Part shown: piece after piece, positions 36,565 through 53,089 of the stretch
Layout: each line of letters begins with the position of its first letter
Position numbering within the stretch: position 1 is the first letter of the stretch
Assembly: GCA_913055735.1 (NCBI GenBank)
Contig: CAJXKD010000001.1
Span: 2,080,281 to 2,144,280, forward strand
Direction: 5' to 3'
Source: an uncultured Rhodospirillales bacterium
GTDB lineage: Bacteria > Pseudomonadota > Alphaproteobacteria > Rhodospirillales > UBA2165
Length of the DNA stretch: 64,000 bases
Made by a program: the position numbers and the translations under genes
The notes under the pieces: model-generated
What the model was told of the DNA's origin: nothing
What the model saw: only the letters and a program-made list of their open reading frames with translations
Database searches by the model: none

Positions 36565-37017
36565 ATGGCGTTGATTGACGCGGGTCAAAAGGCACCAGCC
36601 TTTTCCTTGCCGAACCAGGACGGCAAGTCGGTCGGTTTGGATCAATTCTCGGGCAAATACGTGCTGCTGTGGTGGTATCCCAAGGCCGATACGCCCGGCT
36701 GAACCATCGAAGGCAATGGGTTCCGTGATCGAATCCAAGATTTCCAAAAATCCAACGCGGTGATCCTCGGTGTCAGTTTCGACAGCCAGGAGGCCAATGG
36801 CGCCTTTAAGGAGAAGTTCGGTTTTCCCTATGACCTATTGAGCGATACCGGCGGCGCCATGTCGCAAGCCTATGGCGCGGCGGAACCGGGCGCTGCCGTG
36901 GCAAGCCGGGTTTCGGTGCTTATCGGTCCCGACGGGAACGTGGCGAAGGCCTATGCGACGGTCAAACCCGCCGACCACCCGGATGAGGTGCTGGCGGATT
37001 TATCGGCGCTCAGTTAG
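36565..37017 (+). CDS. Selenocysteine-containing peroxiredoxin (in-frame TGA at 36700-36702)
   Basis: A thiol/selenol peroxidase of the AhpC/TSA-BCP type that reduces peroxides. Reading from the ATG at 36565 (GGGGAGGGA 4 nt upstream) to TAG at 37015-37017 gives a 150-residue peroxiredoxin with one in-frame TGA at codon 46. That codon sits exactly at the peroxidatic cysteine: PKADTPG-Sec-T matches the family PxxxTxxC motif. Both flanks are fully conserved: FSLPNQDGKSVGLDQFSGKY before, and GVSFDSQEANGAFKEKFGFPYD (shortened) after, with the catalytic arginine in ASRVSVLIGPDG. There is no other stop or frame change. A SECIS-like hairpin follows at 36717-36737. Automatic calling would keep only the C-terminal part starting near 36760. 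It ends 8 bp from the convergent rhodanese gene. A decayed gene is the alternative, but is less likely given the second case at 49882. Confidence 0.9.
36717..36737 (+). promoter_or_regulatory. Candidate bacterial SECIS element (peroxiredoxin)
   Basis: TGGGTTC and GAATCCA form a 7-bp stem with one G-T pair around the loop CGTGATC. The loop begins 22 nt after the TGA and has G as its second base. This fits the known bacterial SECIS rules: a short stem, a G among the first two loop bases, and a UGA-to-loop distance of about 16-37 nt. Confidence 0.7.
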
Positions 37018-49881: not shown

Positions 49882-50505
49882 ATGGCCGAACCGATCGTTC
49901 TGGAGGTCCTCTCCGACTACGTGTGACCGTGGTGTTATCTCAGTACCGGGCGTATTGAAAAACTCACGCAAAACTTCGACATCGAGGTCGCGCTCGTTCA
50001 CTTCCCCCTGCATCCCGACACACCGGCTGACGGCTTAGCGCTTGCCGAGCTGTTCGCCGGGCGCAATGTCGACATCGATGCCATGAACACCCGCATGAAA
50101 GGACTGATGGAGGCCGAAGGGCTGCCCTACGGGACGCGCACCCACACCTACAATAGCCGCTTGGCTCAGGAACTAGGCAAATGGGCGGAGACGCAGGAAG
50201 GCGGTGCGGCCATCCATAAGCCGTTGTACCAGGCCTACTTTGTCGAGAGCCGCAACATCGGCGACGTCGAGGTGCTGGTCGATATCGCGGCGAGCGCGGG
50301 ATTATCCGCGGAAACCGCGCGCCAAGTGCTCGAGGAACGTTTGTTCAGCGACATGATCGATGCCGACTGGGACAAATCGCGCCAGTACGGCGTTACCGGC
50401 GTGCCGACCTTCGTTGCCGCGCGTCAGGGCGTTGTTGGTGCGCAACCTTATGAGGCATTGGAAGAATTTCTGACCTCGGTTGGGGCGCAACGCAAATCCC
50501 CGTAA
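49882..50505 (+). CDS. DsbA/FrnE-like thioredoxin-fold selenoprotein (in-frame TGA at 49924-49926)
   Basis: A thiol-disulfide oxidoreductase of the DsbA superfamily, FrnE branch. Translation from the ATG at 49882 gives MAEPIVLEVLSDYV, then TGA at codon 15, then PWCYLSTGRIEKL. The TGA sits exactly at the first cysteine of the CPWC active site, giving a Sec-P-W-C centre, and C18 is kept. The rest is intact over 207 codons: VHFPLHPDTPADG matches the FrnE F.L.PD.P.EG block, and the cis-proline loop is GVTGVPTF. There is no signal peptide, so it is cytoplasmic. A SECIS-like hairpin follows at 49940-49958. Automatic calling would start at 50083 and lose the whole active site. The gene follows DUF1993 and the Ldh2-type dehydrogenase. 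Confidence 0.9.
49940..49958 (+). promoter_or_regulatory. Candidate bacterial SECIS element (DsbA/FrnE-like)
   Basis: TCAGTAC and GTATTGA form a 7-bp stem with one G-T pair around the loop CGGGC. The loop begins 21 nt after the TGA, with G as its second base. Stem length, loop start (C-G) and spacing are nearly the same as for the candidate at 36717. Confidence 0.7.
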
Positions 50506-51976: not shown

Positions 51977-53089
51977 ATGCCCAACCTTACCTTCGTCCTT
52001 CCGCACTGGCTTTATTGGTCGGGACTTATCGTCTTTCCCATCATGGCCATGGTCATTGTCCGCCGCCGCGCGGCGCAGCCGGATCGCAAACGCCCAGCGG
52101 TCACGCTGCCCATTGCTTATCTTCTCTGGGTGGGCGGCGGGTTTGTCGGCCTGCACCGGTTCTATGTCAAAAGCTGGTGGGGGTTCATTTTCATCCCGCT
52201 GTTTGTGCTGATCCTTTTCGGTAATGTTGAGCACCGCGTCGTCCGCGAAGAGGTGTCGATCGCGCGAACCAATGTGTCCAGTCTGGAGAATTTGGAAAAC
52301 CGCTACGAACGCCGGTTAGCGCAAGGGCGTTCCGGCGCCCAGCGACAGCTCGATCAGATCCGCTCGGAGATGGCACCCGCCCGGGAAGCGCTCGCCGCTG
52401 CCCAGGAGAAATTCGATTTCTGGTCGAACTTCTCGGGCTGGGTCGCGGCGGCGATCGCGGTCCTCCTGCTTTTTGACGCAGCCATACTGCCCAAGCTCGT
52501 GCGCCGGACCAACGATATCGAGGGTGAGGCACCGCCGCCTGTGGAGGTGCCTAGCGAAAACATCGATCAGCACGACCCGGCCCTTAAAATCCATACTGGG
52601 TTCACCAACGTCATTGACGGCGTGAACGGCTGGGTCGGCGAATTCGTTGCCTTCTGGTCGATCGTTGCCGTGTTCGCCTATTACTACGAAGTAGTGGCCC
52701 GGTATGTCTTCAATTCGCCGACCAACTGGGCGCATGAGGCCATGTTCCTCATGTTCGGCATGCAGTATCTGATCGCCGGCGCCTATGCGCTGCGGGAAGA
52801 TGCGCATGTCCGTGTCGACGTTATTTACCTGATGCTCTCGGACCGGGCAAAGGTCATCACCGATATCGTCACGTCGTTCTTCTTTTTCGTGTTTGCCGTC
52901 ACCTTGCTGGTGACGGGCTGGATATTCTTCGTCGACGCGTTCGAGGTGAGAGAAGTGTCGTTCACCGAATGGGCGATCCAATACTGGCCGGTCAAAGCGA
53001 CCATGGCCATCGGGGCGGCGCTTTTGGTCCTGCAAGGCATCTCGAAATTGATCAAAGACGTCATTCTTCTCAAGCAAAGGCTCGCCTAA
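51977..53089 (+). CDS. dctQ: TRAP small permease (DctQ) fused to a TM2/coiled-coil N-terminal module
   Basis: A 370-residue membrane protein about twice the size of a normal DctQ (about 160-200 aa). The C-terminal part (about 205-370) is DctQ: WVGEFVAFWSIVAVFAYYYEVVARYVFNSP and HEAMFLMFGMQYLIAGAYALREDAHVRVDV (shortened) with the family block. The N-terminal part has one helix (8-28), a TM2-like hairpin with GGGFVGLHRFY (53-63) and a following helix, then a charged, Gln/Glu/Arg-rich coiled coil (about 88-147), and another helix (152-172). The coiled coil should project into the cytoplasm or periplasm. The start at 51977 is the first ATG of the frame and keeps the whole extension. dctM starts 2 bp after its stop. 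Confidence 0.88.
   Translation: MPNLTFVLPHWLYWSGLIVFPIMAMVIVRRRAAQPDRKRPAVTLPIAYLLWVGGGFVGLHRFYVKSWWGFIFIPLFVLILFGNVEHRVVREEVSIARTNVSSLENLENRYERRLAQGRSGAQRQLDQIRSEMAPAREALAAAQEKFDFWSNFSGWVAAAIAVLLLFDAAILPKLVRRTNDIEGEAPPPVEVPSENIDQHDPALKIHTGFTNVIDGVNGWVGEFVAFWSIVAVFAYYYEVVARYVFNSPTNWAHEAMFLMFGMQYLIAGAYALREDAHVRVDVIYLMLSDRAKVITDIVTSFFFFVFAVTLLVTGWIFFVDAFEVREVSFTEWAIQYWPVKATMAIGAALLVLQGISKLIKDVILLKQRLA

Follow-up and report, generated by a model that had tools for sequence, protein, structure and literature searches.

A probable selenocysteine-containing FrnE-type oxidoreductase encoded by an alphaproteobacterial gene with an in-frame UGA

The gene at positions 49882-50505 of the window, i.e., of the whole stretch of 64,000 nucleotides that was analysed, very probably (we would put it at roughly 0.95) encodes a cytoplasmic, selenocysteine-containing thiol/selenol oxidoreductase of the FrnE type, which belongs to the DsbA superfamily. 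SelB, tRNA-Sec and a hairpin in the message would insert the selenocysteine (Sec) at an in-frame UGA. The view builds on what can be read directly: the position of the codon, its conservation as Sec or Cys, a SECIS-like RNA, the Sec machinery of the genome and the predicted fold. The pertinent features are these:

49882..50505, + strand: coding sequence of a predicted 207-residue Sec-containing FrnE/DsbA-like protein, UGA as Sec at codon 15 (PF01323, 4e-35; AlphaFold pLDDT 96; FrnE 5coh, TMq 0.87)
49924..49926, + strand: in-frame TGA, putative selenocysteine codon (Sec15) replacing the first Cys of CPWC (orthologues: 27 TGA, 72 TGT/TGC, 0 other)
49933..49935, + strand: TGT for Cys18, the presumed resolving Cys of UPWC and sole Cys of the protein (invariant in alignments A3 and A4; translation)
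49940..49958, + strand: predicted bacterial SECIS hairpin with a 7-bp stem (49940-49946 with 49952-49958) and the loop CGGGC (49947-49951), G second (folds, covariation, synonymous constraint)
50083..50505, + strand: short ORF expected from a conventional gene caller, without the active site (standard ORF list)
50401..50406, + strand: Val174-Pro175, cis-Pro-loop position (G-V-P-T) of the thioredoxin fold (V174 and P175 invariant in alignments A3 and A4)

The frame opens with ATG at 49882, closes with TAA at 50503-50505 and comprises 208 codons, the TGA at 49924-49926 being the only internal stop. The initial annotation had read it as LSDYV, TGA, PWCYLSTG and had placed the TGA on the first active-site Cys, with the second one kept. 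Rereading gave the same result: with UGA as Sec the peptide around codon 15 is LSDYV-U-PWCYLSTG, and in an alignment with FrnE of D. radiodurans, Sec15 falls on the first Cys of CPWCY. The D. radiodurans protein and SCO1869 of S. coelicolor are the top phmmer matches in the PDB. The read-through product contains a full DSBA domain (PF01323, residues 7-197, E 4e-35) that scores 121.8 bits against a cut-off of 25.6. PF01323 has seven matches in the same genome, and only the one at 49882-50505 has a TGA inside.

A usual gene caller had been expected to start at 50083 and to lose 67 codons. Indeed, the standard ORF list offers 50083-50505, a product of 140 amino acids from which these codons, active site included, are left out. 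Since no NCBIfam model reaches its cut-off with the protein (best 33.6 vs 190 bits), the N-terminus of the gene is likely missed in routine annotation. That the short ORF is the real product, a protein without active site, has the output of the ORF finder in its favour, yet such a protein would be devoid of the first strand and the redox helix of the fold. Moreover, the orthologue alignments show conservation of codons 1-14 at the protein level (LEVFSDYV) along with synonymous changes. A start at 50083 is thus very improbable. A promoter scan found none, and comparison of gene neighbourhoods revealed no stable partner beyond close relatives.

The AlphaFold model of the read-through product has a mean pLDDT of 96 and a pTM of 0.92. 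Residue 15 lies in a loop that leads directly into helix 16-31, at the N-terminus of the redox helix. In Foldseek the FrnE structures 5coh and 5cnw rank first and second (TMq 0.87/0.86), followed by YjbH, kappa GST and HCCA isomerase. By analogy with the fold family, Pro175 is presumably the cis proline. Apart from Sec15 the protein has Cys18 as its one Cys, and a C-terminal CXXXXC is absent.

Among 60 related genomes, close orthologues (54-71% identity) from 18, the source genome counted, contain one in-frame stop, which is TGA; those of four genomes contain no stop. An order-wide search together with named GTDB genomes extended the set to 115 genes with a readable active-site codon, and this was TGA in 27, TGT in 46 and TGC in 42. 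The named relatives are metagenome-assembled genomes (MAGs) labelled Rhodospirillaceae/Rhodospirillales, SAR116, Betaproteobacteria, Gammaproteobacteria and Desulfobacterota. Collapsing identical genes leaves 27 Sec and 72 Cys rows. The comparison at column 15 that the initial annotation had proposed therefore has a clear outcome: the codon is TGA, TGT or TGC in all 99 distinct orthologues and nothing else. The gene from one MAG labelled Klebsiella pneumoniae (L071, CAMDRJ010000045.1) is almost identical to that from a Betaproteobacteria MAG (L078); the Klebsiella label is probably wrong.

Taken alone, an in-frame TGA could also stem from a nonsense mutation. The gene could then be decaying: a former TGC or TGT would have turned into TGA, and the ORF that follows would be a relic. 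However, in all 27 TGA orthologues the stop sits at exactly the codon aligned to Sec15, the other 72 have TGT or TGC there, and chance, which had been considered very unlikely from the outset, does not produce such a pattern. These 27 distinct genes are at 53-73% identity; their frames are intact, their catalytic residues are invariant, and no other in-frame stop occurs in those checked. A pseudogene is hardly conceivable. The same can be said of a sequencing or assembly error for TGC or TGT. The source genome is a single assembly (three contigs, 94.8% complete), but independent assemblies of several genera share the TGA, and a SECIS-like constraint is present only where the TGA is present. 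A misread TGC or TGT had been named as what would overturn the initial annotation; independent orthologues with both the TGA and the conserved SECIS-like hairpin exclude it.

The hairpin itself follows the UGA closely, its loop beginning 20 nt 3' of the codon. In the Sec rows, codons +4 to +11 show a synonymous codon identity of 0.86, while 0.38 is expected from codon use; in the Cys rows the same codons give 0.39 against an expected 0.39. Further downstream, at codons 13-39, the Sec rows also fall back to expectation (0.38 vs 0.37). In a scan of codons -12 to +43, the stretch +4 to +11 was the top 8-codon window of the Sec rows, with 0.57 as compared to a median of 0.08. Pairing is kept in 98.9% of the pair cells of 26 sequences, and drops to 25-45% if the partner is slid by 1-3 columns as a control. 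At two stem pairs both partners have changed: four sequences have C-G in place of U-A, and one has U-A in place of A-U.

Bacterial SECIS elements are described as having a stem of 4-16 bp, a loop of 3-9 nt with a G in the first two positions, a distance of 16-37 nt from the UGA and a minimum free energy of at most -7.5 kcal/mol (PMC13188914). With its 7-bp stem, its 5-nt loop, G in the second loop position and a spacing of 20 nt, the hairpin lies within these limits. The energy is -8.9 kcal/mol for a stretch of 44 nt and -11.7 kcal/mol for one of 57 nt, both of which satisfy the limit; the 7-bp hairpin alone, at -5.9 kcal/mol, falls short of it. Single-sequence folding revealed no significant extra stability over shuffles (z -0.1 to -1.7), and support for the hairpin accordingly comes from the comparative data. 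A search with a SECIS covariance model (R1) brought up no further convincing site, either in the window or in the genome. This was to be expected, because R1 includes coding columns of one family; its result says nothing on other selenoproteins. An Rfam scan of the window yielded no match. Rfam is not known to have a generic bacterial SECIS model, and the blank is therefore uninformative.

The source genome (3.73 Mb) also has the machinery, the absence of which would have spoken against the initial annotation. A tRNA-Sec with the anticodon UCA lies at C1:6503-6593. The genes of SelB (C1:13476-15356, 461 bits) and SelA (C1:15401-16744, 614 bits) adjoin each other, and SelD is encoded at C1:343417-344343 (404 bits); all three score above cut-off. 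SelD is a selenoprotein candidate itself, with an in-frame TGA in the motif HGGGUGCK. Another one is a peroxiredoxin of 150 amino acids within the window (36565-37017, + strand, PF00578), which has its TGA at 36700-36702 in the motif TPGU (TxxU). The initial annotation had pointed to this companion gene, and its TGA is in fact retained in many relatives; it is absent in two genomes, G001 and G011, both without selA.

An open frame would equally result if UGA were read as another amino acid, be it by genome-wide use as Trp or by suppression. Against this stand the orthologues, which have Cys at the site and never Trp or any other residue, the UGA-decoding tRNA-Sec with SelA and SelB, and the element 3' of the codon, which is conserved in TGA members only. 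The probability of such a reading is negligible. In short, decay, sequencing error, the start at 50083 and a residue other than Sec were all rejected.

Across genomes, the TGA goes along with selA. Of the TGA genomes, 14 of 18 have selA above cut-off; of the Cys genomes, 4 of 28 do (Fisher p 2.8e-5, a value that overstates independence because the genomes share ancestry). If only genomes of at least 90% completeness are considered, the figures are 9/9 and 3/21. On a tree, the Sec/Cys label changes four times, as compared to a mean of 24 after shuffling, and all Sec rows group in a single supported part of it, within which Cys genes are nested; the tree is midpoint-rooted with some long rows and does not in general fix gain versus loss. 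G001 and G011 lack the TGA in the FrnE-like gene as well as in the peroxiredoxin. Their Cys orthologues (L037 and L035) are nested among Sec relatives. The Cys gene of G001 retains a SECIS-like remnant (TATCTCAATACCGGGCG) and is likely a Sec-to-Cys reversion.

Four TGA genomes (G005, G008, G021 and G023; 57-89% complete) yielded neither selA nor a selB above cut-off. Their TGA and SECIS-like stretch are intact, and G005 and G008 (L032, L036) have a TGA in the peroxiredoxin as well as in the FrnE-like gene, which makes assembly gaps likelier than loss of the machinery. Altogether, we favour, with moderate confidence, a well-defined clade of alphaproteobacterial and some beta- and gammaproteobacterial Sec-FrnE proteins, nested among Cys relatives, whose SECIS hardly varies and in which Sec reverted to Cys where the Sec machinery was lost; no NCBIfam model recognises it above cut-off, and current annotation probably truncates its members or treats them as pseudogenes.

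The initial annotation had called the protein an unrecognised selenoprotein. This holds in so far as the gene may be unannotated; the family is published. Sec-containing DsbA-like UXXC proteins, assigned to COG2761, were reported from the Sargasso Sea in 2005 (PMC1088965), "DsbA 1" (pfam01323, UxxC) was listed among the GOS selenoprotein families in 2008 (PMC2398784), and "DsbA-like protein form 1" (PF01323, UxxC) appears in a 2026 inventory, where the selenoperoxiredoxin (TxxU) is also established (PMC13188914). The kind has thus been known since 2005, and the gene at 49882-50505 is a sound further member. Shared with the family are PF01323, a single Sec in first position of UxxC, Cys homologues, a SECIS directly downstream and an origin from marine and environmental bacteria. 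As in the family, the UGA lies under the first Cys of the CxxC of Cys homologues, and the second Cys is kept. NIP15863.1 is an example of a published member. Judged by the published descriptions, there is no difference of principle.

Within the superfamily, the FrnE fold with a CPWC-type motif at the redox helix (TMq 0.86-0.87) assigns the protein to the FrnE subfamily. With D. radiodurans FrnE (DR_0659; 5cnw, 5coh) it shares the fold (TMq 0.87), the position of CPWC, the cis-Pro region and the predicted role of a cytoplasmic oxidoreductase. The identity is 33%, and the D. radiodurans protein has its first Cys where the gene has Sec. That enzyme is described as a cytoplasmic disulfide reductase regenerated by its C-terminal CXXXXC (PMC8945050). 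The lack of this motif does not disqualify the Sec protein as FrnE, since some FrnE proteins do without it (PMC8945050), e.g., those of S. roseofulvus and D. maricopensis; it does imply that regeneration must differ from that in D. radiodurans. SCO1869 of Streptomyces coelicolor (3gl5) likewise has the FrnE-type fold (TMq 0.87), but is a Cys protein of 32% identity. A paralogue in the same genome (L150, C2:603618-604211) shares PF01323, domain type and CPWC motif, but has Cys at the site, no TGA and about 29% identity.

How might the enzyme work? SelB and Sec-tRNA(UCA) would bind to the stem-loop 49940-49958, whereby Sec, as the sequence suggests, would be incorporated at UGA 49924-49926. Sitting where the redox helix begins, Sec15 could then attack substrate disulfides or oxidised thiols with its selenolate. 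Cys18 would resolve the mixed selenosulfide and leave a Sec15-Cys18 selenenylsulfide. With no further Cys in the protein, regeneration of the enzyme would depend on a reductant from outside, presumably glutathione or thioredoxin. It probably operates in the reductase/isomerase direction, and a cytoplasmic location is suggested by the N-terminus, where no signal is seen.

All this indicates that at least three genes of this alphaproteobacterium, those of SelD, the peroxiredoxin and Sec-FrnE, have a UGA that is decoded as Sec. In a survey of 2006, FdhA was the only selenoprotein in the then-known Sec-decoding genomes of Alpha- and Betaproteobacteria and Pseudomonadales (PMC1794560). A family that has no NCBIfam model at cut-off easily loses its catalytic centre when genomes are annotated routinely. 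The Sec/Cys pairs, including the Cys gene with a SECIS-like remnant, are a natural experiment on the retention of Sec at the FrnE active site. Elsewhere in the window, at 51977-53089 (+ strand), a DctQ component of a TRAP transporter has an extra N-terminal part and a weak match to a TM2 domain (20.7 bits, below the cut-off of 27.9).
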